Source: Sinomonas sp. P10A9
GTDB lineage: Bacteria > Actinomycetota > Actinomycetes > Actinomycetales > Micrococcaceae
Length of the DNA: 64,000 nucleotides
Assembly: GCF_041022165.1 (NCBI RefSeq)
Contig: NZ_CP163302.1
Coordinates: forward strand, 3,162,001-3,226,000
Direction: 5' to 3'
This document shows positions 4,551 through 61,349 of the stretch, one piece after another. Under the pieces are notes generated by a model, which saw nothing but the letters and a program-made list of their open reading frames with translations, was not told the origin of the DNA and did no database searches. The position numbers and the translations under genes were made by a program. Positions within the stretch are counted from its first letter, which is position 1. Each line of letters opens with the position of its first letter.

Positions 4551-5984
4551 ATGGCCCTCACCCTCGCCGAGCTCCTCAACCACGCCGATCTCGGCCTCCG
4601 GCTCGCGGGCTCCGCCACCGCCACGCTGCGCGAAGAGATCCGCTGGGTGGCCGTCACGGAGCTTGAGGATCCGGCGCAGTTCCTCACCGGCGGGGAACTC
4701 GTCCTCACCACCGGGGTCCGGCAGCGCACCGCCATCGAGCAGCGCCGGTTCGTGCGCGTGCTCCGGCGGGCCGGCGCCCTGGGCATCGGTTTCGGCGTAG
4801 GCCTCGGGCACGACGAGATCCCGCCTGCCCTCATCGCGGAGGCGAACCGCTGGGGCGTGCCGGTGATCGAGGTCCCGTACCGGACGCCGTTCATGGCCAT
4901 CGGGAAGCTCGTCGCCGATTCCCACTCGGCCGACCACTACGCGAGCCTCGAGCGCCTCATCGGCGCACACCAGGTGTTGGCCCGCTCGCTCCTGACGGGC
5001 GGCGGCCTCCACGAACTCCTCAAGCACCTCGGCACCATGCTGCACACCGAGATCATCCTGACCCAGTTCACGGCCCAGCTCTACGCCTCGGGACCCGAGG
5101 CCGGGACGCCCACCATGGACCGATGGGTCCCGTACCCCGTCCCAACCGGTCGCCGCGACGCGTGCACCCTGTGGGCCAAGAAGCCGTTCGAGGACACGGG
5201 GATCATCTCGTACGCGCAGAACCTCATCAGCATCGAGCTCAACAACCTCACGAAGCAGCGCCAATCCCAGCGGGCCCTCGCCGGGCAGGTGATCAACGAC
5301 GTCGTGCGCGGAACCCTCGAAGCCGAGGAGGCCTCGCGCCGGCTCGCCGCGATCGGGGTCAACTCGACGAAGCGCAACGTGGTGCTGCTCGCCGAATCCG
5401 CCGCACACCACAAGAACCTGCGCGGGGCCACGCTCCCCGCCGCGCTCGACGGCGCGGTGACCGCGATGCTCGACCGCGACCTCGCGGTGGTGGTGGAGGA
5501 CGACGGCGCCGCCGCGCCGAAGCTGGGCCGCCTCCTCTCCGACCACCTCACCGAGGCGGGGATCCACGCGACGATCGGTATAGGCGGTGCCTACACGAAG
5601 CCCAACGGCCTGCGCTGGAGCTACTTCGAGGCCAAGGACGCCGCCGCCCGGGGCCTTGAGGTCAACGAGCCCGAGCGCCTGAGCATCACCTCGCTCCTGC
5701 TCGCGAGCGAGGACGTTCCCCTCGCGGACATGGCCGGGGAGGCGATCGGCCCGCTCGCCCGGTTCGACCGGCAGCACGGCGCCGAGCTCGTGCACACGCT
5801 CGAGACCTACCTCACCCTCAACGGCTCGGTGGCACAGGTCGCCGAGCAGCTCAACCTGCACCGGAACACCGTCCGCTACCGGCTCGGGCAGATCGCCGAG
5901 CTCACCGGGTACGACCCCGCCGTCACCGCCGACCGCGTGCAGCTGTACCTGGCCCTCGCGGTGAGGAAGGTCGCGAAGGCGTAG
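4551..5984 (+). CDS. PucR-family transcriptional regulator, probable gabT regulator
   Basis: This 477-residue protein has the PucR layout. An N-terminal purine-catabolism-type domain (about 1-125) contains FLTGGELVLTTGVRQRT and GFGVGLGHDEIPPALIAEA. A central GGDEF-like/CdaR region follows, and a C-terminal helix-turn-helix lies at about 425-460 (LNGSVAQVAEQLNLHRNTVRYRL). Members act as transcriptional activators or repressors responding to small metabolites, and several govern amino-acid, GABA or purine catabolism. Its head-to-head position with gabT suggests GABA or a related amine as effector; that is inference. The start is chosen from the TATAGT box 7 nt upstream. Confidence 0.85.
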   Translation: MALTLAELLNHADLGLRLAGSATATLREEIRWVAVTELEDPAQFLTGGELVLTTGVRQRTAIEQRRFVRVLRRAGALGIGFGVGLGHDEIPPALIAEANRWGVPVIEVPYRTPFMAIGKLVADSHSADHYASLERLIGAHQVLARSLLTGGGLHELLKHLGTMLHTEIILTQFTAQLYASGPEAGTPTMDRWVPYPVPTGRRDACTLWAKKPFEDTGIISYAQNLISIELNNLTKQRQSQRALAGQVINDVVRGTLEAEEASRRLAAIGVNSTKRNVVLLAESAAHHKNLRGATLPAALDGAVTAMLDRDLAVVVEDDGAAAPKLGRLLSDHLTEAGIHATIGIGGAYTKPNGLRWSYFEAKDAAARGLEVNEPERLSITSLLLASEDVPLADMAGEAIGPLARFDRQHGAELVHTLETYLTLNGSVAQVAEQLNLHRNTVRYRLGQIAELTGYDPAVTADRVQLYLALAVRKVAKA

Positions 5985-5997
5985 GGACCGATCCCTC

Positions 5998-6103
5998 TCG
6001 CCGAGGTGGGGTCTGCGGCGCGACCTCAGCGTCACACGGGGTGACCTCGCCACCACACGGGGTGACCTCGGGCCCACACGGGGTGACCTCGGCGAAGGAG
6101 GAG
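5998..6103. repeat. intergenic 21-nt tandem array between convergent genes
   Basis: The core GTGACCTCG begins at 6041, 6062 and 6083, with a degenerate unit (GCGACCTCA) at 6020, an exact 21-nt period. Units 1 and 2 share the tail CACACGGGGTGAC. The outer ends TCGCCGAGGT (5998-6007) and ACCTCGGCGA (6086-6095) are inverted copies. The array fills the gap between the convergent PucR and FprA genes. The same unit is found in both orientations within the E2 gene at 54.3-54.9 kb. Confidence 0.8.
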
Positions 6104-6107
6104 TCAG

Positions 6108-7574
6108 TCAGCCTACGACCGGGGCGCCGTTCGAGATCTCGACCATGTCCTCGCGCGCGACGACCTTGACGCGCTCGCGCGCCACCGGGCCCTTGTGCGT
6201 CGGAGCCGGCTCCGCAGCGGCGCCCAGGGCCTTCTCATGCGCGTCGAGCGCGAGCCAGCCCTCCCACGTCGTGTACTCGATGCCGCGCTCGGCCAGCAGG
6301 TCCGTCACGGCGGCCTCGGCGGGGGCCTCGGCGGCGGGCAGGTCCTCGCGGGCATCGAGCAGGTGCCCGATGGTTTCGAGGGCATCGCCCTTCGTGTGCC
6401 CGATGAGGCCCACGGGCCCGCGCTTGATCCAGCCCGTGGTGTACACCCCCGGCACCGGCAAGCCGTCAGCGTCGAGGACGCGGCCGCCGTCGTTCACCAC
6501 CACACCGCGGCGATGGTCGAACTCCACGTCGGGCAGGGCCGAGCCGAAGTAGCCGATCGCCCGGTACACGGCCTGGACGGGGTAGTCGACGAACTCGCCG
6601 GTGCCCCGAACGGCGCCGGTCCCGTCGAGCTCCTGGCGCTCGAACCGGATCCCGGCCACGCGGCCGGGAGTCTCGGGCGAGTCGACGATCTCGACCGGGC
6701 TCTGCAGGAAGTGCAGGTGCAGGCGGCGCGAGGCGGTGAGCTCGGAGACATCCTCGGGCTGCTCGGCGATCCAGTTGGTCAGCGTGCCGACCATGGTCTT
6801 GACCTGGTTGTTGGTCTGGATCTCGCGGTCCGAGGCATCGTCGAACTCGAAGTCCTCGGGATAGAGCACGAGGTCGACGTCGTGCGAGTGGGACAGCTCG
6901 CGGAGCTCGAGCGGGGTGAACTTGACCTGTGCCGGGCCGCGGCGCCCGAACACGTGCACGTCGGTGACCGGGGACTCCTTGAGGATCCGGTAGACGTTGT
7001 CCGGGATCTCGGTGACGAGGAGCTCGTCGGCGTGCTTCGAGAGGACGCGGGCGACGTCGAGCGCGACGTTGCCGTTGCCGATCACCGCAACCTCGCGCGC
7101 TTCGAGCGGCCACTCGCGCGGCACGTCCGGGTGTCCGTCGTACCACGAGACGAAGTCGGCGCCGCCGAAGGAACCTTCGAGCTCGATGCCGGGGATGTTG
7201 AGGTCCGCGTCCTTGATCGCGCCGGTCGCGAAGACCACGGCATCGTAGTGCCGCTGCAGGTCAGCCAGCGAGAGGTCCGTGCCATAGTCCACGTTGCCGA
7301 AGAAGCGGATGTCGCCGCGGTCCAGGACCTTGTGCAGGGCGTTGACGATGCCCTTGATGCGCGGGTGGTCCGGAGCCACGCCGTACCGGATGAGCCCGTA
7401 GGGGGCCGGGTAGCGGTCGAACAGGTCGATGCTCAGCGTGAGCTCGCCCGAGGCAACGGGGGCGCTTTTCGTCAGCAGGTCCGCGGCGTACACGCCGGCG
7501 GGGCCGGAGCCGACGATGGCCACGCGAAGGGGACGCTGGGCGGTGCCCCGCGGGGCGGGGTTGAGGTTCGACAC
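6108..7574 (-). CDS. fprA: FprA-type ferredoxin--NADP+ reductase
   Basis: The 488-residue flavoprotein belongs to the adrenodoxin-reductase/FprA group. The FAD Rossmann motif is at the N-terminus (VAIVGSGPAGVYAADLL), followed by YGLIRYGVAPDHPRIKGI typical of this subfamily. The NADP-binding segment VAVIGNGNVALDVARVL with FGRRGPAQVKFT comes next, and the C-terminus carries GWIKRGPVGLIGHTKGDA. It moves electrons between NADPH and ferredoxin in the cytosol. It is the last gene of the SsuABC-type importer/cysG unit, 30 nt after cysG, so it could supply reduced ferredoxin to the sulfite reductase at 20.0-21.8 kb. The GTG at 7574 has AAGGA 9 nt upstream. Confidence 0.9.
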   Translation of the reverse strand: MSNLNPAPRGTAQRPLRVAIVGSGPAGVYAADLLTKSAPVASGELTLSIDLFDRYPAPYGLIRYGVAPDHPRIKGIVNALHKVLDRGDIRFFGNVDYGTDLSLADLQRHYDAVVFATGAIKDADLNIPGIELEGSFGGADFVSWYDGHPDVPREWPLEAREVAVIGNGNVALDVARVLSKHADELLVTEIPDNVYRILKESPVTDVHVFGRRGPAQVKFTPLELRELSHSHDVDLVLYPEDFEFDDASDREIQTNNQVKTMVGTLTNWIAEQPEDVSELTASRRLHLHFLQSPVEIVDSPETPGRVAGIRFERQELDGTGAVRGTGEFVDYPVQAVYRAIGYFGSALPDVEFDHRRGVVVNDGGRVLDADGLPVPGVYTTGWIKRGPVGLIGHTKGDALETIGHLLDAREDLPAAEAPAEAAVTDLLAERGIEYTTWEGWLALDAHEKALGAAAEPAPTHKGPVARERVKVVAREDMVEISNGAPVVG

Positions 7575-24597: not shown

Positions 24598-24655
24598 TTG
24601 AGGGGTCGCTTCCCCATTGAGGGGTCACTTCCCCGACGAGGGGTCATATCCCGGG
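24598..24655. repeat. 19-nt tandem array upstream of the DUF559-like gene
   Basis: The core GGGGTC starts at 24602, 24621 and 24640, an exact 19-nt period, with consensus GGGGTCACTTCCCCATTGA. An inverted version of the same unit lies on the other side of the gene at 25706-25750. Confidence 0.75.
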
Positions 24656-33520: not shown

Positions 33521-33866
33521 ATCTCTGCCTTTACTTGTGAGGTATATGTCAAGAGTGCTAGTGCGACGTCCAATCCTACCCCTGCCACCGGCCGGATGAG
33601 ATGTGCATCACAGGCAACTTCTGTTTCACTATTGGACAACATGCAGGCGAGGGAATCAAGCCCCGAAGGCCGGCGTGCCGTCCGGGATGACAGACGATGC
33701 CCCACACCTCCCACCAGACCCACCAGATGCAGGGTCACCTCCCTGCGATGCGGGGTCACCTTTCTAAAGCAGAGAACGCCCGTCCTAGACACGTGCCCCC
33801 GCAACATTGAGAAGTGACTCCGCAAGGTTGACACCTGACCCCGCAACGCCGAGAGGTGACCCCTCA
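33521..33866. repeat. 346-nt region with the importer promoter and a 21-nt array
   Basis: The half near 33521-33600 precedes the importer operon and should carry its promoter. From 33732 to menD a 21-nt period runs. GGGTCACC units start at 33732 and 33753; units of the form GACCCCGCAACRYTGAGA follow at 33795, 33816 and 33837, and a partial unit runs into the menD stop. The array joins the GGTGAC core of the 6.0 and 54-kb arrays to the CCCCGCAAC core of the 30.7 and 60.5-kb arrays. No gene is seen. Confidence 0.7.
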
Positions 33867-35561
33867 TCAGGAGGTGACGCCCACGGCGTCTGCCACCGCC
33901 GCGCGGATCCGGGCGTGCAATCCGCGCAGCCCGGTTCTGTCCACTCGCGCCTCGACGATCTCGCGCCCCGCCCGCCGGGGAGCCGACAGCGCGGCCGCGG
34001 CCTCCGCCGTCGTGCGCACGATCGTGTGCCGTATCCCGTACGCCGCGGCGAGCGCGCGGAGGTCGGCACGGTGGGGCGTGCCGAAGAGCCGTTCGACGGC
34101 GGCCGCCGCGCCCGGCCGGCCGGGCTCGCCGCCCACCCGTCCGTGTTCGAGGATGCCGAAGATCGCCCCGCCGGCGTCGTTGAGCACGACGACGCGCAGG
34201 TCGGGCTCCGCTTCCCCCTCGCCGAGGAGCAGCCCGCCGGCGTCGTGCAGGAGCGTGACGTCGCCGAGGAACACCGTGGTCTCGACGCGGCGGCCGAGCC
34301 AGAGTCCGGTGGCCGTGGACACCGTCCCGTCGATGCCGGCGAGGCCGCGGTTGGCGAACACGCGCGCCCAGGGCAGGGTGGGCGGGGCCGCGGCGAGGTC
34401 GGCGTCCCGGATCCCGTTGGAGGAACCGAGCATGAGCTGGCCCCTCGCACTCTGCCACACGAGCTGGGCCAGGCGCGGGCCGCTGAGCGCGGCGCCCGGG
34501 GCGCCGATGACGCGGTCCACCGCTTCCTGGGCCGCGGCACCGGCAAGCAGCCACGCGTCCAGCCAGCCCTCGGCGCCGCGGCCCGCGAAGTCGGAGAGGA
34601 CGTCGAGGTCTGCCACGAGGCGTTCGCGGCGGCGCCCCTCACGGAACCACGCCGCCGGGCGCGGGTGGTACAGGGCGGTCTGGACGCCCTCACGCGCCAG
34701 GAGCGCGGTGACCGGGCGGGAGAGCGTGGGCCGGCCGAACAGCACGACCCGCTCGATCACGTCCCCGGGCGACCCGTCCAGCAGGAGCCGGTAGGGGCCG
34801 ACGGCGTGCCCGCCGAAGCGGGCGTTGGAGCTGGGCTCGGCCAGGAGTGGAAGGCCATGCGCCGCGGCGAACGCCTCAGCGATCGGCCCGGCGGCGTGGC
34901 CCGCGAGGACCACCGTGCGCCGCGGCTCAAGCCCGCTGAGCGCCGCCACGGGCGGACGCCGGTACGCGTATTCCTGGACGGGCGGAGGGTCCCATCCGCC
35001 CAGCGGTGGCTCCCATCCGTCCTCGGGAACGAGCGGCTCGCGGAAGCACAGGTTGAGCTGGGCCGGTCCGGCGGGGACGCCCTCGAGCACCCCTGTCGCC
35101 GCGGAGACCGCCGTCCGGACGGAGGCCGACGGCGACGCGCCGGCCTCGACCGTCACGGCGAACCGCACGTGCTCGCCGAAGAGGTCGAACTGCTCCGTGG
35201 TCTGGTTGGCGCCGGTTCCGTGGAGTTCCTCGGGCCGGTCGGCGGAGAGCACGATGAGGGGGACCTCGGCATGGTTGGCCTCCATGACGGCGGGCAGGAG
35301 GTTCCCGACGGCCGAGCCGCTCGTGGTGACGACCGCCGTCGGCCGTCCCGAGGAGAGGGCCGCACCGAGAGCAGTGAAGCCGCCCGCACGCTCGTCGATC
35401 CGCACGACAAGCTCCAGATGGCCCCTCCCCTCGGCCTCTGCGAGCGCGTACGCGAGGGGTGCGCTCCGGGAGCCCGGGCACACAACAACACAGCGGACGC
35501 CGCCCGCGAGCAGTTCGGAGACTGCTTCGCGGGCGGCGTCGAGAGAACTGAGGGGACTCAC
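33867..35561 (-). CDS. menD: SEPHCHC synthase MenD
   Basis: The 564-residue ThDP enzyme joins isochorismate and 2-oxoglutarate for menaquinone synthesis. The N-terminus has VVVCPGSRSAPLAYAL and VVTTSGSAVGNLLPAVMEA, with SADRPEELHGTGANQTTEQ. The C-terminal ThDP-binding region has FLGDVTLLHDAGGLL and VVLNDAGGAIFGILEH. GTG at 35561 lies 6 nt after TACGAT on the coding strand, so the transcript is probably leaderless. Its last residues (GVTS) fall within the edge of the 21-nt repeat array. Confidence 0.92.
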   Translation of the reverse strand: MSPLSSLDAAREAVSELLAGGVRCVVVCPGSRSAPLAYALAEAEGRGHLELVVRIDERAGGFTALGAALSSGRPTAVVTTSGSAVGNLLPAVMEANHAEVPLIVLSADRPEELHGTGANQTTEQFDLFGEHVRFAVTVEAGASPSASVRTAVSAATGVLEGVPAGPAQLNLCFREPLVPEDGWEPPLGGWDPPPVQEYAYRRPPVAALSGLEPRRTVVLAGHAAGPIAEAFAAAHGLPLLAEPSSNARFGGHAVGPYRLLLDGSPGDVIERVVLFGRPTLSRPVTALLAREGVQTALYHPRPAAWFREGRRRERLVADLDVLSDFAGRGAEGWLDAWLLAGAAAQEAVDRVIGAPGAALSGPRLAQLVWQSARGQLMLGSSNGIRDADLAAAPPTLPWARVFANRGLAGIDGTVSTATGLWLGRRVETTVFLGDVTLLHDAGGLLLGEGEAEPDLRVVVLNDAGGAIFGILEHGRVGGEPGRPGAAAAVERLFGTPHRADLRALAAAYGIRHTIVRTTAEAAAALSAPRRAGREIVEARVDRTGLRGLHARIRAAVADAVGVTS

Positions 35562-52712: not shown

Positions 52713-53525
52713 TCAGCTCAGGCTGGCAGCCTTGAGCCGCCGGATGAACAGCCGCGACTGCTCCGGTCCGTATGGGAGGATCGGGACTGCCTTGGTGGCG
52801 TCGTCAGGCGTCTCCCGCGTGGCCTGGATGGCCGAGCGCACCGCCGTCGCCATAGTATCGGCCATTGTCCGCACGAACGCGTCGCTGCACAGCCGGCCGT
52901 GCCCCGGCACGAGCGACTGGTACCGGTTGCGCAGTGCCGAGATGTGGCGCAGCACGTCCGCCCACTCTTCCGGGAACGAGTCCCCGAATTCCGGATAGGC
53001 GCCCTCCTCGACGAGGTCACCGGCGAACAGCGTCGACGCCGTGCCCACGAGCAGGTCGCCGTCCGTGTGCCCGCGGCCCAGGTGGAACAGCGTGACCGAA
53101 GCGCCGCCGAGGTCCACGAGCACTGGCTGGTCCCGCACGATCCCCGTGGGAACGACGATCTCCGTGTTCTCGCCCTCACCAGCGGCCATCGCGGGCTCCG
53201 CCTCGGCCACGGCCGGGCGGTGTGCCTCGCCGTTCTGGGCGATCTCGGCGACAGCGTTCTCGTGCGCGTAGAACTCCGTGGCCCCGGCGGCCGCGAACAC
53301 GGCGTTGCCGAAGTAGTGGTCGTAGTGCGCGTGGGTATTCACGACGACGAGCGGCAGCTCCGTCTTCTCGCGCACCGCCGCGAGGATGTCGGCGCCCTGG
53401 CGGGGCCCGTGGCCCGTATCCACCACGAGCGCACGCTCCTCGCCGACCACGAGGCCAATGTTGAGCCGGAGCGGCTCCGTGGCCAGGACGTAGGTGTTCG
53501 CTCCGAGATCCTGCCATCCAGCCAC
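52713..53525 (-). CDS. metallo-beta-lactamase-fold hydrolase
   Basis: The 270-residue protein has the dinuclear-zinc motif NTHAHYDHYFGN near residues 62-73, HLGRGHTDGD (third His), TLFAGDLVEEGAYPE (bridging Asp) and LVPGHGR (last His). The fold covers lactonases, glyoxalase II-like and RNase enzymes, and the substrate cannot be told. GTG at 53525 with AAAGGAAGG upstream is chosen; an in-frame ATG about 22 codons upstream is possible. It lies between the E2 gene and the MinD-like gene and may be read through from the bkd operon. Confidence 0.85.
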   Translation of the reverse strand: MAGWQDLGANTYVLATEPLRLNIGLVVGEERALVVDTGHGPRQGADILAAVREKTELPLVVVNTHAHYDHYFGNAVFAAAGATEFYAHENAVAEIAQNGEAHRPAVAEAEPAMAAGEGENTEIVVPTGIVRDQPVLVDLGGASVTLFHLGRGHTDGDLLVGTASTLFAGDLVEEGAYPEFGDSFPEEWADVLRHISALRNRYQSLVPGHGRLCSDAFVRTMADTMATAVRSAIQATRETPDDATKAVPILPYGPEQSRLFIRRLKAASLS

Positions 53526-53580
53526 TTGTGTGCCGTCCTTCCTTTGGCGCTCAGGGTTGTCCCCGATTCTGCCATGCACC

Positions 53581-55131
53581 CTACAGGTCCGCGAGGACGC
53601 TGCCGGGCTGCTCGACCGCGTCGGCGACGAAGCGGAGGAATCCGCCCGCCGTCCCACCGTCGCACACGCGGTGGTCGAACACGAGCGTGAGCTGCACGAC
53701 CTTCCGGACCGCGAGCTCGCCGTCCACGGCCCAGGGCCGGTCGATGATCCTGCCGATCCCGAGGATCGCGGCCTCGGGGTGGTTGATGATCGCGGCACTG
53801 CCGTCCACGCCGAACACGCCGTAGTTGTTGAGTGTGAACGTTCCGCCCGTGAGGTCTGCCGGAGATGCCTTGCCGTCCCTTGCCAGACCGGTGAGGCGGC
53901 GGAGCTCGGCGTCGATCTGGCGTGCGCTCAGGCGGTGGGCGCCGCGGATGGCGGGGACCATGAGGCCCCGGTCGGTCTGGGCCGCGAAGCCCAGATTGAT
54001 GCCATCGAACCGGACGATCTCCTGCGCGCCCTCTGCCGTCTCCTCGAGTCGGGTGTTGAGCTCGGGGTACTTCACGAGGCCCGCGAGCACGAACCGGGCG
54101 ATGAATGCGAGGAGGCTCGGCGTGGTGTCCGGGTCGCGGCGTTTGAGGTCGCTGCGGAGCTTCACGAGTTCCGTCGCGTCCGCGTCGACCCAGACCGTGG
54201 CCTCCGGGATCTCCGTGCGGGAGCGGACCATGGCCTGCGCCACGGCCTTGCGGACGCCCGTGACGGGGGTGCGGGAGGCGATGCCGAGGCCCGTCTTCGC
54301 GTCCGTCTCCCCCGCCGAGGTCACCCCCTGTGGCGCCGAAGTCACCCCGTGTGTCGCCGAAGTCACCCCCTGCGGAGGTGAAGTCACCCCCTGCGGTGCC
54401 GAAGTCACCGCCTGCTGAGGTGAAGTCACCCCCTGCGGTGCCGAAGTCACCCCGGCGGACTCGACGTCACGGCGCATGATGAGCCCATCGGGGCCTGATC
54501 CGGAAATCGATCCGAGCGTGATGCCCAGGTCCGCGGCGAGCTTGCGGACGATCGGCGAGACGACCCGCACGGCCCGGCCCGGCGCCGTCGTGCGCGATGG
54601 TTCCGCGGCAGGCGTGGCGGACGACGGCGGGGCCCCCTTGCGTCGCCGGGTGCGGCCGCCTACCGTTCCCCCCGCGGTGCCGTAGCCGATGAGGACGTTG
54701 CCGGAGCCGGAGTCTTCAGGACGCCCCCGCGAACCGGCTCGCTCTTCGGTGCGATAGATCTCATCGGGGGACGGGGTGACCTCGGCGCCAGAGGGCGTGA
54801 CCTCGGCGCCACCAAGGGTGACCTCAGCACCACCAGAGGTGACCTCGGCACCAGAGGGGGTGACCTCGGCGACGGTGATGAGGGGCGCGCCGACGTCGAG
54901 CGTCGATCCCGGCTCGCCGTGCAGCACGGCAACGGTGCCTCCGAACGGGGTCGGGACCTCGACAATCGCCTTGGCCGTCTCGACCTCGGCGATCGGCTGG
55001 TCCACGGCCACGGTGTCCCCCACGGCCACAAGCCAGCGCACGAGTTCAGCCTCGGTGAGGCCCTCCCCGAGGTCGGGCAGCAGGAACGTCTTCTGCGCGG
55101 CGGTGCCGTGCGCAGTCACTGTCGTTGGCAT
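53581..55131 (-). CDS. 2-oxoacid dehydrogenase E2 component with repeat-derived linkers
   Basis: The 516-residue acyltransferase has a lipoyl domain (about 1-85; lipoylated Lys in EVETAKAIVEV), a peripheral subunit-binding domain (about 188-222; VSPIVRKLAADLGITLGSIS) and a C-terminal catalytic domain with HRVCDGG near 490. Both linkers are low-complexity heptad repeats. Residues about 85-120 repeat AEVTPSG-like units and residues about 220-272 repeat GVTSAPQ-like units, encoded by a 21-nt DNA repeat read on opposite strands. It is third in the E1alpha-E1beta-E2 operon, most likely the branched-chain 2-oxoacid dehydrogenase complex. Confidence 0.92.
   Translation of the reverse strand: MPTTVTAHGTAAQKTFLLPDLGEGLTEAELVRWLVAVGDTVAVDQPIAEVETAKAIVEVPTPFGGTVAVLHGEPGSTLDVGAPLITVAEVTPSGAEVTSGGAEVTLGGAEVTPSGAEVTPSPDEIYRTEERAGSRGRPEDSGSGNVLIGYGTAGGTVGGRTRRRKGAPPSSATPAAEPSRTTAPGRAVRVVSPIVRKLAADLGITLGSISGSGPDGLIMRRDVESAGVTSAPQGVTSPQQAVTSAPQGVTSPPQGVTSATHGVTSAPQGVTSAGETDAKTGLGIASRTPVTGVRKAVAQAMVRSRTEIPEATVWVDADATELVKLRSDLKRRDPDTTPSLLAFIARFVLAGLVKYPELNTRLEETAEGAQEIVRFDGINLGFAAQTDRGLMVPAIRGAHRLSARQIDAELRRLTGLARDGKASPADLTGGTFTLNNYGVFGVDGSAAIINHPEAAILGIGRIIDRPWAVDGELAVRKVVQLTLVFDHRVCDGGTAGGFLRFVADAVEQPGSVLADL
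54314..54470. repeat. 21-nt tandem array A inside the E2 gene
   Basis: GTCACC starts at 54320, 54341, 54362, 54383, 54404, 54425 and 54446 on the plus strand, seven units at an exact 21-nt period. On the coding strand each unit reads like GGGGTGACTTCGGCACCGC and encodes GVTSAPQ. One unit has CACACGGGGTGAC, identical to the intergenic array at 6.0 kb. Confidence 0.9.
54770..54875. repeat. 21-nt tandem array B inside the E2 gene, opposite orientation
   Basis: GTGACC starts at 54776, 54797, 54818, 54839 and 54860 on the plus strand, five units at 21 nt. Orientation is reversed relative to array A, so the coding strand reads GCCGAGGTCACC and encodes AEVTPSG-like units. It lies between the lipoyl and subunit-binding domains. 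Confidence 0.9.
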
Positions 55132-55132
55132 G

Positions 55133-56203
55133 TCAGTCCTCCCACTGCAGGTCGTCGAGGGCGTCGAGGATGCGGTCCACGCTCGGCAGGTAGTAGTGCT
55201 CGAGCTTGGGCGGCGGGAACGGGATGTCGAACCCCGTCACGCGCCGCACGGGCGCGGCGAGCGAGTGGAAGCAGCGCTCCTGGACTCGCGCCACGATCTC
55301 GGACGCGACAGAGGCGAAGCCCGCTGCCTCCGCGACCACGACGGCGCGCCCGGTCTTGCGCACGGAGGCGCACACGGTCTCGTCGTCGAACGGGACGATC
55401 GTGCGCACGTCGATGACCTCGACCGAGCGGCCCTCGGCCTCGGCCGCCTCGGCCGCAGCCAGGGCGGTCGGGACGCTCGGCCCGTACGCGATGAGCGTCG
55501 CGTCGGTTCCGGCGCGGGCAACGACGGCTGCGCCATCGACGCTCAGCCGCCGCGCGCCGCCGTGCCCGGCACCCGCAAACTCAGCGCGGAGCGCCTCGAG
55601 GTCCACGAGGTCCTTGGACCAGTATTGCTTCTTGGGCTCGAGGAACACGACGGGATCGTCGCTCGCAATGGCCTCGCGGAGCATCCGGTAGGCGTCCGGG
55701 ACGGTGGCGGGCGCGAAGACCTTGAGGCCCGGAGTGTGGGCGTAGTACGCCTCGGACGAGTCGCAGTGGTGCTCAACGCCGCCGATCCCGCCGGCATACG
55801 GGATGCGGATCACGAGCGGGAGCCGGACCGCGCCCCGAGTGCGGTTGTGCATCTTCGCGATGTGGCTCGCGATCTGCTCGAAGGCGGGGTAGGCGAAGGC
55901 GTCGAACTGCATCTCGATCACGGGGCGGAGCCCGTTCATGGCCATGCCGAGGGCCATCCCCGCAATCCCTGACTCGGCCAGCGGCGTGTCGAAGCAGCGC
56001 TCGGCCCCGAATTCCTTCTGCAGGCCGTCGGTGATGCGGAAGACCCCGCCGAGCGTGCCGACGTCCTCGCCGAACACGACGACGTTCGCATCCGTGCGCA
56101 GGGCGTCCGCCATCGCGGTGGTCAGGGCCTTGGCAAAGGTGAGGGCCTCGGGGCCCGCCGTCGCAGTAGCTCGGGCCTGCGCGGCCTCAGCAACCGTGCT
56201 CAT
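55133..56203 (-). CDS. 2-oxoacid dehydrogenase E1 beta subunit
   Basis: The 356-residue protein has VVFGEDVGTLGGVFRITDGL, DTPLAESGIAGMALGMAMNG and EMQFDAFAYPAFEQI, then VIDVRTIVPFDDETV in the C-terminal domain. These are typical of branched-chain 2-oxoacid dehydrogenase beta subunits. With E1alpha it decarboxylates the 2-oxoacids derived from Val, Leu and Ile and acylates the E2 lipoyl group. It lies 2 nt after the E1alpha stop and 1 nt before the E2 start. Confidence 0.92.
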   Translation of the reverse strand: MSTVAEAAQARATATAGPEALTFAKALTTAMADALRTDANVVVFGEDVGTLGGVFRITDGLQKEFGAERCFDTPLAESGIAGMALGMAMNGLRPVIEMQFDAFAYPAFEQIASHIAKMHNRTRGAVRLPLVIRIPYAGGIGGVEHHCDSSEAYYAHTPGLKVFAPATVPDAYRMLREAIASDDPVVFLEPKKQYWSKDLVDLEALRAEFAGAGHGGARRLSVDGAAVVARAGTDATLIAYGPSVPTALAAAEAAEAEGRSVEVIDVRTIVPFDDETVCASVRKTGRAVVVAEAAGFASVASEIVARVQERCFHSLAAPVRRVTGFDIPFPPPKLEHYYLPSVDRILDALDDLQWED

Positions 56204-56205
56204 GC

Positions 56206-57369
56206 TCAGCGCTCCTCTCGGGAAAGCTCGTCGGCCAGCTGGGCGGCCTGCTCGCGCAGCTGGGGGGTCGGTTCGGTGTAGACGAAGCGGAAGAGGTCCT
56301 GGGGATCCACGTCCGTGTCGGCGCCCAAGCCGTCGCGGAGCTGGCGTGCCACGTCCTCGGCGTCCGCGGCGAAGGAGGCCTCGGTCGCCTCCGTGAGGGC
56401 GCCCACCGCGCGCAGGTACTCGCGCATCCGCACGAGCGGGTCCTTGGCCGCCCAGGCTTGGACCTCGGCGTCGTTGCGGTAGCGGGTCGCGTCGTCAGCG
56501 TTGGTGTGGGCCTGCATCCGGTACGTGTAGGCCTCGACGAGGAGGGGCCCCGAGCCGGCGCGTGCCAGGCGCACGGCTCGGTCGAGGACGGCGAGGAGGG
56601 CCACGGCGTCGTTCCCGTCCACGCGCTCCCCCGCCATGCCGTAGCCGACCGCCTTGTGTGCGAGCGACGGCGCGGCGGTCTGGTGCGCGAGCGGCACGGA
56701 GATCGCGTACTGGTTGTTCTGGACGAAGAAGACCACGGGCAGGTTGAAGACCGCTGCGAAGTTGAGGGCCTCATGGAAGTCACCCTCGCTCGTTGCGCCA
56801 TCGCCGCACATCGCCAGGACAACGGTGTCCTCACCGCGCAGCTTCGCGGCGTGCGCGACGCCCACGGCGTGCAGCAGCTGGGTGGTCAGCGGCGTGGACT
56901 GGATGCCCACCCTGTGCTCGTGGCAGTCGTATCCACCGTGCCAGTCGCCGCGGAACAGGGTCATGGTCTCCACGGGGTCCACGCCGCGGGTCATGACGGC
57001 GACCGAGTCGCGGTAGGTGGGGAACATCCAGTCGCCGTCCGCGAGGCACAGCGCGGCGGCGACCTGGCAGGCCTCCTGGCCATGGCTGGAGGGATAGACG
57101 GCCATGCGGCCCTGGCGCACGAGCGCGGAGTTCTGGTCATTGACGCGGCGGCCGATCACGAGCCGGCGGTACGCCTCGAGGAGCTCGCCCGCGGCTGGGA
57201 TCGGGTACTCGTGGCCGGGGGCCGAGCCGCGCTCATCCTCGGGGCGGAGGGTACCGTGCTCGTCGAGAATCTGGATCTGGGGCACGCGGCCGTGCACCGG
57301 GAGCATGTAGTCCTCGATGCTGATCCCGAAGCTGCGGATGGCCTCCTGTGCCTCGGTTGGGACGGTCAT
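56206..57369 (-). CDS. 2-oxoacid dehydrogenase E1 alpha subunit
   Basis: The 387-residue ThDP-dependent subunit has the ThDP motif CGDGATSEGDFHEALNFA ending at the NN in VQNNQYAIS. YPSSHGQEACQVAAALCL and a TYRMQAHTNADDATRYR phosphorylation-loop-like segment point to the branched-chain type. It is first in the E1alpha-E1beta-E2 operon. An Lrp/AsnC-type regulator is divergent, 150 nt away, as in known bkd loci. No E3 (lipoamide dehydrogenase) is present; a shared E3 elsewhere is expected. Confidence 0.92.
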   Translation of the reverse strand: MTVPTEAQEAIRSFGISIEDYMLPVHGRVPQIQILDEHGTLRPEDERGSAPGHEYPIPAAGELLEAYRRLVIGRRVNDQNSALVRQGRMAVYPSSHGQEACQVAAALCLADGDWMFPTYRDSVAVMTRGVDPVETMTLFRGDWHGGYDCHEHRVGIQSTPLTTQLLHAVGVAHAAKLRGEDTVVLAMCGDGATSEGDFHEALNFAAVFNLPVVFFVQNNQYAISVPLAHQTAAPSLAHKAVGYGMAGERVDGNDAVALLAVLDRAVRLARAGSGPLLVEAYTYRMQAHTNADDATRYRNDAEVQAWAAKDPLVRMREYLRAVGALTEATEASFAADAEDVARQLRDGLGADTDVDPQDLFRFVYTEPTPQLREQAAQLADELSREER

Positions 57370-59636: not shown

Positions 59637-60398
59637 ATGACGACCGACAGCGGGGCCGCGACTCGGCGCCCACCATGGGTGTGGCTCCTCATGGCCGCGT
59701 GCGTCCTCGTGGGCGTCGGGGTGATCGTGGCTGTCGCGGGACTCTTCATGGCGCCGTCCTCGCGGCCGCCCGCGACGCAGCCGACGCCATCCGCGGGAGC
59801 CAGCCCCGCGGCGTCGTCCGCGCCGGCCGTACCCGTCACCGCGTATGGGCTCTCCGATGCGCTCCCACTGATGGTACCGCCGGTCTGGCACGCCGAACCG
59901 GGCGCCGACTACATGCTCACCGCAGCCGCCGACTCGCTGACTTACGCGTCCGCCTCAGACTCCTGCCTCCTCACGTTCGGCGTCGGGCCGTTGCGCCCGG
60001 TGCCGAGCGCGTCGGCAGGACGCACGACGCCAGCCCCCTCCTCCGTGCCCACGGCGCCGGCGCTATCCGGTCCGGACTCGGAGACCGCGGCGACTCGCGC
60101 GGCCCTCGCGGGCGCCGTTGAGTCGCGCCGGAGTTCCGCGGCACGGGTGAGCGTCACCGCACAGGACTTGACGGTCGTGACGACCCTCGACTCGCTCAGC
60201 GGCCCCCTCGTGGACATGGCCGGAGCCGATCTCCGGGTGGCACACGCCGACGGCACGGTCACATACGTCCGTCTGGCCGTACGCGCCGTGCCGTCGGCGA
60301 CGTCCGCCGTGTCGATCAGCGCCGAGTGCCCCTCCGCTGAAGCGGCCGCGACGGCCATGAACCACGCGAGCGTGCGCGCCTATCTCACCGGAAATTGA
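59637..60398 (+). CDS. single-pass membrane protein of unknown function
   Basis: The 253-residue protein has one N-terminal hydrophobic segment (VWLLMAACVLVGVGVIVAVA) after a short cytosolic tail. A Ser/Pro/Ala-rich stretch and an extracytoplasmic domain with two Cys residues (about 107 and 231), possibly a disulfide, follow. I do not recognise a family. GAGGAGGG precedes the ATG. A 22-nt repeat array follows the stop. Confidence 0.65.
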   Translation: MTTDSGAATRRPPWVWLLMAACVLVGVGVIVAVAGLFMAPSSRPPATQPTPSAGASPAASSAPAVPVTAYGLSDALPLMVPPVWHAEPGADYMLTAAADSLTYASASDSCLLTFGVGPLRPVPSASAGRTTPAPSSVPTAPALSGPDSETAATRAALAGAVESRRSSAARVSVTAQDLTVVTTLDSLSGPLVDMAGADLRVAHADGTVTYVRLAVRAVPSATSAVSISAECPSAEAAATAMNHASVRAYLTGN

Positions 60399-60419
60399 GG
60401 GGACCCCGTAACCCACGGC

Positions 60420-60562
60420 CAGAGACCCCGCAATCCACCGCCAGAGACCCCACAACGTTGCGGGGTCTCTGGCGCGTCGTTGCGGGGTCTCTGGCGCGTC
60501 ATTGCGGGGTCTCTGGCGCGTCATTGCGGGGTCTCTGGCGCGTCGTTACGGGGTCTCTGGCG
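60420..60562. repeat. 22-nt tandem array between convergent genes
   Basis: CAAY cores at 60431 and 60453 are followed by inverted GTTG/ATTG/GTTA cores at 60457, 60479, 60501, 60523 and 60545, all spaced 22 nt within each orientation. Each right-hand unit reads GTTGCGGGGTCTCTGGC or a close variant. The two orientations meet at 60456/60457 as a 34-bp palindrome with one mismatch. It sits between converging genes and could terminate both. Confidence 0.8.
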
Positions 60563-60566
60563 CGCG

Positions 60567-61349
60567 TCAGCGCCCGGAGAACACCGGCTTGCGCTTCTCC
60601 TGGAAGGCCTTGAAGCCCTCGGCGTAGTCCTCGGAGGCGCAGAGGGAGGCCTGCGCCTTGTTCTCGGAGTCCATGGACTCCCACAGCCCGAGCCTGCGGT
60701 CGCGGATCTGCGCGACGAGCTCCTTCGACGCCACGAACGCCCCGGTAGCCCCGGCGGCCACTCCGGCGACGATCGCGCGGGCCCGCCCGAGCAGTTCCTC
60801 GGCAGGGAAGGCCCGGGAGAACATCCCGGACCGCACGGCATCGGCGCCGCTCATGAGCTCGGCCGTGTACACGAGGTCGAGGGCCCGGTGCATGCCCAGG
60901 CGTTCGGTGAAGTACCAGTGGCCACCCGAGTCGAGCGTGGCCCCGAGATTCGCGAACGGAGAGCCGATCTTGGCGTTCTCCGCGACGTACACGACGTCCG
61001 TCGCGAGCAGGAGGCCGAGGCCCACGCCGAGCGTCGCCCCCTGCGCAGCGGCGAAGGTGGGCGCCGGGAAGGCTGCCATCTTCTGCATGAGCGGCGTCAC
61101 GAGCCCGCCGAGGTAGCCGAGCACGTCGTCGTCGGCCGGGTTCACGCCCGAGATGTCGCGGCCTGCGCAGAACGCGCGCCCCTCGCCGCGCAGGAGCAGC
61201 GCCCGGACCTCACCGCGGGAGGCGGCGGCAGCGGCGTCGTCGTACGCGGCCGAGAGCTCGGCGAGCGCGGCCTCGTCCAGGGAGTTGAGGTTGGCGGGCG
61301 CGTCGAGGATAACCTCGGCGACGCCGTCGGCGATGGACAGGGTGATCAT
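60567..61349 (-). CDS. enoyl-CoA hydratase/isomerase, PaaF/PaaG-like
   Basis: The 260-residue crotonase-fold protein has the oxyanion-hole segments LLLRGEGRAFCAGRDISG and AAAQGATLGVGLGLLLATDVV, followed by GSPFANLGATLDSGGHWYF. Its last 20 residues (EGFKAFQEKRKPVFSGR) are typical of the family. Position 8 nt after paaE suggests PaaG (ring-epoxide isomerase) or PaaF (hydratase) in phenylacetate breakdown; sequence alone does not choose. It is the last gene of the paa operon in view. Confidence 0.85.
   Translation of the reverse strand: MITLSIADGVAEVILDAPANLNSLDEAALAELSAAYDDAAAAASRGEVRALLLRGEGRAFCAGRDISGVNPADDDVLGYLGGLVTPLMQKMAAFPAPTFAAAQGATLGVGLGLLLATDVVYVAENAKIGSPFANLGATLDSGGHWYFTERLGMHRALDLVYTAELMSGADAVRSGMFSRAFPAEELLGRARAIVAGVAAGATGAFVASKELVAQIRDRRLGLWESMDSENKAQASLCASEDYAEGFKAFQEKRKPVFSGR

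Follow-up and report, generated by a model that had tools for sequence, protein, structure and literature searches.

Both linkers of the E2 acyltransferase of Sinomonas sp. P10A9 carry a dispersed, REP-like 21-bp tandem repeat

The two repeat arrays found in the linkers of the E2 dihydrolipoyl acyltransferase of the soil bacterium Sinomonas sp. P10A9, named A and B below, belong to a Sinomonas family of REP-like 21-bp tandem repeats. We consider it probable that this genus-specific family lives as DNA and is tolerated and homogenised in the linkers, by a mode of spread that we infer. The gene was studied in a window of 64,000 nucleotides (NZ_CP163302.1, positions 3,162,001 to 3,226,000), which is the whole stretch of DNA analysed and to which the coordinates given without a locus label refer.

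The E2 gene, the domains of its product and the arrays are listed in Table 1. It is adjoined by genes at 55133-56203 and 56206-57369, which we take from their translations to be E1beta-like and E1alpha-like, respectively. The frame of 516 aa spans both arrays, array A corresponding to residues 228-276 (GVTSAPQ-type) and array B to residues 88-119 (AEVTPSG-type), and it is free of internal stops in all of the 15 genomes of the genus. An earlier note on this DNA had claimed two tandem arrays of a 21-nt unit, with seven copies in A and five in B and a common core borne on opposite strands, giving a different peptide in each array; inspection of the arrays confirmed both points, and Tandem Repeats Finder independently detects arrays A and B with 6.7 and 4.7 copies, respectively, at a period of 21. 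The exact GTGACYTCGGC is present in five of the seven units of array A and GTGACYTC in all seven, the corresponding numbers for array B being four of five for the exact motif and five of five for GTGACCTC. On the core strand, most of the units start with GGGGTGACYTCGGC and the remainder is variable. The same note had both arrays flanking the subunit-binding domain, which is right for array A, located close behind this domain, and wrong for array B, which directly follows the lipoyl domain with about 70 more linker residues before the subunit-binding domain. The E2 linkers of 2-oxoacid dehydrogenases are Ala/Pro-rich, flexible and disordered. Those described here are alike in position, flexibility and composition but differ in that their DNA is the dispersed repeat of the genome, which is not the same from one species to another. 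A scan of 53000-56500 for promoters and terminators gave nothing, and a distant blastn of the E2 linker region against a plasmid collection gave no match.

Table 1. Features of the E2 gene and one intergenic array in the window.
Feature	Positions	Strand	Basis or remark
E2 dihydrolipoyl acyltransferase gene, 516 aa	53581..55131	-	ORF and Pfam lipoyl, E3_binding and 2-oxoacid_dh domains
Lipoyl domain, residues 15-86	54874..55089	-	Pfam PF00364, E 3.9e-17
Array B, five 21-nt units, core GTGACCTC, AEVTPxG in linker 1	54776..54880	core on +	
Peripheral subunit-binding (E3-binding) domain, residues 191-224	54460..54561	-	Pfam PF02817, E 3.9e-12
Array A, seven 21-nt units, core GTGACYTC, GVTSAPQ in linker 2	54304..54450	core on -	
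Acyltransferase catalytic domain, residues 286-513	53593..54276	-	Pfam PF00198, E 7.3e-73
Intergenic array of the same family, 3 units by the GTGACNTC rule	6041..6103	+	between two convergent genes, beside the minus-strand gene at 6108, on its 3' side

The repeat is abundant outside E2. The exact GTGACYTCGGC occurs 145 times in the 4.29-Mb genome versus three times for the same pattern read backwards, and cores spaced by 21 nt form 101 tandem pairs genome-wide versus none for the reversed pattern, which bears out the expected presence of copies over the whole genome. Within the window, 22 core matches (at most one mismatch) were counted, whereas 100 dinucleotide shuffles averaged 5.5 and never reached 22. 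The fetched loci of this genome (G000) contain 43 arrays with two or more units, of which 29 are intergenic and 14 in-frame in 11 genes, in agreement with the earlier proposal of a dispersed DNA repeat tolerated in coding linkers; these counts are lower bounds, the search pattern having missed at least one in-gene array (locus L275 of genome G011), and the genes were called with a simple codon model. At the level of the family, at least 30 matches to the TCGGC triple pattern were found in 8 of the 15 genomes of the genus, and none of the 280 family genomes outside the genus had more than 15.

The arrangement of the arrays was compared between G000, G011 and G006, the arrays of the last being taken from about 100 of its 132 places, those listed first. 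A gene 3' end is the nearest gene end for 23 of the 29 intergenic arrays in G000, 18 of 22 in G011 and 26 of 33 in G006 (among the places listed), and the core runs opposite to that gene in 21/23, 18/18 and, again among the places listed, 21/26 cases, respectively, some of the arrays beginning a few bases past the stop codon. Opposed neighbouring arrays face outward (left on minus, right on plus) in 52 of 53 cases: 12/12 in G000, 10/10 in G011, 12/13 in G006 (among the places listed) and 18/18 in G009, G007 and G012 combined, no pair being present in G005. Since G011 is of the same species as G000, the count can also be given without it, as 42 of 43. Outward pairs are also found within single genes and between genes of the same direction, and thus are not merely a consequence of convergent genes. 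The period is 21 in 236 of the 243 spacings of intergenic arrays in the three genomes. The earlier remark that 21 is a multiple of three holds insofar as the reading frame is kept; the identical intergenic period indicates that the length is not an adaptation to coding. By eye, recurring CACGACGGCG stretches and their complement, full or partial, were seen between or beside opposed arrays (L107 around 5010-5110, L108 around 5225-5290 and L111 around 6555-6620), and are perhaps a repeated terminator hairpin. Rfam, run on four sources, returned only an unrelated ZMP/ZTP riboswitch (RF01750), above its gathering score, at L107:7355-7441.

Within genes, arrays are hosted by E2, DNA polymerase III gamma/tau (dnaX), a DeaD-type RNA helicase and an HrpA-like helicase, and further by LUD-domain, DsbD/thioredoxin-like, aldehyde dehydrogenase (at the C-terminus), PRTase_2/StiP and DUF4194 proteins, two other hosts having no Pfam match; the LUD-domain protein is presumably LutC-like and is so called below. 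The proteins that carry it are a minority, and the repeat lies in their linkers and termini. Three main frames account for 38 of the 39 in-gene arrays of G000, G011 and the listed part of G006 (AEVTPxG in 16, GDLGATx in 12, xVTSAPx in 10 and another frame in 1). One of the frames of the unit is closed by TGA, three of the five open ones give flexible peptides rich in Ala, Thr, Ser, Pro and Gly, and the open frames beyond the three main ones are nearly unused. A further in-gene tandem array in G011 (L275:9865-9985) is readable as A-H-G-V-T-S-G with a variant second half; its host gene, judged from the downstream sequence, presumably resembles an aminodeoxychorismate/anthranilate synthase gene.

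Each unit has two parts, a conserved core of 11 bp (GTGACYTCGGC here) and a half of 10 bp that varies. Variability was scored in arrays identified by TCGG[CT] alone, repeated at 21-nt steps, positions 6-10 being still ascertained by this search pattern. The five bases before NTCGGC showed in G000 and G006 (the latter as listed) a mean variability of 0.07 in genes and 0.06 between genes, and the last ten bases 0.35 and 0.34, respectively. The values in and between genes were 0.08 and 0.09 for the core and 0.27 and 0.36 for the other half in G009, 0.07 and 0.09 for the core and 0.36 and 0.39 for the other half in G007, and 0.06 and 0.13 for the core and 0.26 and 0.37 for the other half in G012 and G005 together. 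Base index 2, at which two of the three main frames have their third codon position, was invariant in 186 in-gene pairs of G000 and G006 and varied slightly in genes in the other groups (0.05-0.13). The synonymous fraction of the unit differences was similar in and between genes (0.30/0.28, 0.34/0.29, 0.27/0.17 and, for one array, 0.33/0.18), in a test based on the GTGACNTC rule, which fixes those positions, and now superseded by the TCGG[CT]-based variability. The DNA unit, and not the heptad, thus appears to be propagated and homogenised.

The nearest named relatives of the E2 are from Sinomonas, and the E2 linkers of G012 and G004 are identical to those of L072 (strain ASV322) and L024 (S. 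atrocyanea), respectively; by inference from sequence, the genus of the compared genomes would be Sinomonas. The consensus core is GTGACCTCGGC in G000, G011 and G006, and also in G003 among the matches listed, CCCATCTCGGC in G009, CCGACCTCGGC in G007 and G012, and CCGATCTCGGC in G005. Both E2 linkers hold arrays, antisense in linker 1 and sense in linker 2, in nine genomes (G000, G011, G003, G006, G010, G005, G009, G012 and G007), and congeners with another core carry that core at the same two places and in the same orientations. When scored with profiles from which the E2 loci had been left out, the E2 units of G009 (10), G007 (3), G012 (10) and G005 (4) matched their own genome best among seven, with small margins for G012 and G007 and with the LutC locus still included in the G007 profile; those of G000, G011 and G006, which have one core in common, all matched the G006 profile best. 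In four genomes where the triple pattern is hit 4-9 times genome-wide (G001, G008, G013 and G014), the E2 lacks a TCGGC-type array; G002 and G004 fall in between. Arrays are scarce in G010 (3 tandem pairs, and 6 triple hits, none resembling the unit), and its E2 and LutC-like proteins (loci L125 and L204) still have short GTGAC-type arrays: coding arrays may persist longer than the genomic family, or may be retained for the sake of the protein.

In the LutC-like protein, the E2 pattern recurs in part, with AEVTPGG-, AEVGALT- and AEVGSGG-type arrays in the GTGAC, G005 and G007 genomes. The arrays are remnants in G002 and G004; G009, G012 and G014 have other repeats there, and G001, G008 and G013 have none. 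In G001, G008, G013 and G014, the E2 and LutC orthologues lack TCGGC-type arrays and the sites have diverged, a single insertion event not being traceable. A small tree places G005 among the GTGAC species with a weak support of 0.18-0.31. Between G000 and G011, 21 of the 28 sites were matched by their flanking genes, and 15 of these 21 differ in unit count by the GTGACNTC rule, a reading of the site listing in which point changes of the motif are also counted; between G000 and G006, 13 of the 28 were matched among the G006 places listed, one match resting on a single gene and a few being loose. The alignment of relatives proposed earlier gives an E2 with 7 + 5 units in both G000 and G011, which differ by three bases located within array B or at its border, and a constant orientation of both arrays in the nine genomes. 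Their position is equally constant, and the sites therefore look old, with their inner sequence replaced. The E2 arrays look old rather than freshly invasive, and the invasion of E2 suggested by the earlier note is not borne out, its interpretation being partly supported as a whole.

According to the explanation that we favor, a seed copy present in a disordered linker would grow and shrink by whole units, through replication slippage or unequal recombination, and repeated re-seeding or non-allelic gene conversion would keep the array in step with the others of the genome. The linkers would tolerate the unit because 21 is divisible by three, which preserves the frame, and because the peptides read in three of the five open frames are flexible; the product would then act as an ordinary swinging-arm linker, its heptads having no further function of their own. 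The opposite order of events, in which the heptads arose by local slippage in E2 as good Ala/Pro/Thr/Ser-rich swinging-arm linkers and the intergenic resemblance is secondary, would agree with the low-complexity and variable E2 linkers of the relatives, some of which have other local repeats, with the skew of frame use to flexible peptides and with the E2 and LutC arrays kept in G010 despite few genomic copies. This order is nevertheless very improbable and largely refuted by the two different peptides that one DNA yields on opposite strands, the presence of the repeat in 29 intergenic arrays and 10 other genes, a core conservation between genes close to that inside genes, and a linker unit type that changes with the repeat family of the genome. 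It is also improbable, if slightly less so, that the arrays are kept for a structure of RNA or a cruciform, the E2 mRNA pairing into a long stem that encloses the subunit-binding domain, and the intergenic pairs acting as 3' hairpins. The E2 segment folds at a z of -8.2 (100 shuffles), opposed arrays are common, and both E2 arms differ together between species; however, of 14 species only four have a strong fold of the E2 linkers (G009 -9.2, G000 -6.5, G006 -5.5 and G012 -3.9, z with 30 shuffles each), the other carriers of both arrays giving -2.3 (G010), -1.3 (G003), -0.9 (G005) and -0.8 (G007) and the rest -1.2 to +1.7, so that a conserved stem in the E2 mRNA need not be invoked. Furthermore, inward pairs fold equally well, so that pairing leaves the outward bias unexplained.

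Among known systems, the repeat is closest in several traits to the REP/BIME/REPIN elements (GTAG and CGTC families), described in PMC3733652 as short high-copy repeats, mostly intergenic and often at most 20 bp from gene 3' ends, with opposed partners and some copies in-frame in replication and RNA-helicase genes. The Sinomonas repeat likewise is high-copy, mainly intergenic, near gene 3' ends and present in replication and helicase genes. The gene 3'-end placement, the opposed partners and the copies in replication and helicase genes would all suit a REP/REPIN family in the strict sense, mobilised by a RAYT, excised and re-inserted as hairpin units, which we regard as highly improbable. Indeed, the consensus GTGACCTCGGCGCCACACGGG has neither a GTAG nor a CGTC tag, the consensus unit alone is a weak hairpin (-3.3 to -5.3 kcal/mol, four to five pairs), and the Y1 transposase (PF01797, Y1_Tnp), RAYT being expected for GTAG families, has no match in G000, the one genome of the genus searched, in a search that was positive in 5 of 14 control genomes. 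The Sinomonas unit also differs from REP/BIME by its 21-bp head-to-tail tandem order with a non-palindromic core, by opposed partners that are whole arrays and nearly always outward, and by a core that turns over between species of one genus.

Slippage alone leaves the better conservation of one half of the unit unexplained, and this leads to an unlikely but possible addition to the reading of a DNA repeat tolerated in linkers: the 11-bp core may be the recognition site of a putative DNA-binding or recombination protein of the genus, whose specificity would drift between species, all arrays, including those in essential proteins, being re-written to follow. The sites would lie every two helical turns, on one helix face. 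The core variants concerned are GTGAC, CCGAC, CCGAT, CCCAT and CCCAC before NTCGGC. If this were true, protein linkers would be edited by a DNA recogniser, and the two linkers of E2 would co-vary across species for that reason alone.

The RPE, reported in a Science paper in 2000, is said to be a palindrome of about 150 bp with a conserved encoded peptide, inserted in-frame in unrelated proteins. The Sinomonas repeat resembles it in being both intergenic and in-frame in unrelated genes, but it is built of 21-bp units in tandem, the number of which varies, and both orientations and three main frames are in use. It is distinguished from coding minisatellites and VNTRs by its dispersal over dozens of loci and by a unit common to coding and non-coding sites. 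For prokaryote satellites, PMC6749651 states that genome-wide transposition of non-coding ones is rare. The Sinomonas repeat is a variant of the REP/RPE kind. From one species to the next, the same two linkers of a central enzyme hold the short repeat of the respective genome, a natural series that makes testable the long-standing question of how far disordered protein regions are moulded by drive acting on DNA versus selection on the protein; part of E2 seems to be written at the DNA level and not by what the protein needs. A core similarly kept in and out of genes and changing between species points to some factor or homogenising process. For annotators and structural biologists, it is a caution that conserved-looking linker heptads can be genome repeats.

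Relatives without the Sinomonas unit also have local repeats in their E2 linkers, for example of the GQSGQL or APVPRS types. VEPVET is encoded in 8 of the 79 E2 loci with a readable frame. When GGTTKCGACNRGCTCRACCA was searched in six of these eight VEPVET genomes and in six controls hand-picked from the remainder, 4-42 copies, some of them the E2 copies, were found in 6/6 VEPVET genomes, and no copy in any of the six controls. This dispersed repeat, unrelated to the Sinomonas unit, thus behaves likewise in Arthrobacter-type E2. The 15-mers of E2 linkers were not enriched in their own 3-kb flanks (71 of 80 loci; 21/22997 and 6/11786 versus 76/38204 for the catalytic part), and the flanks alone therefore show nothing. 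No description of the 21-nt repeat was found among the papers listed by the literature searches, fragments of both repeats being looked for as text in open-access PMC papers. A DDAAPAPSPDGIAASSMPSGSDRPDATPGAASSAPA-like stretch, whole or partial, is present in E2 linker 1 of several Arthrobacter-type genomes (L028, L033, L039, L043, L045, L052, L060, L075, L076 and L092) and may be another dispersed repeat.

Other tandem families were observed in the window. A 22-nt array in two opposed orientations (GACCCCGCAACCCACCGCCAGA and CGTTGCGGGGTCTCTGGCGCGT) at 60402-60564 fills the gap between convergent genes called at 59679-60398 and 60567-61349. The 21-nt family GTGACCCCGCAACGTTGAGAA at 33793-33863 directly adjoins the gene at 33867 on its 3' side, and the 19-nt family TTGAGGGGTCACTTCCCCA at 24598-24646 is not beside a called gene end. 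GGGGTCAC is also present in the LutC repeats of G009 and G012.
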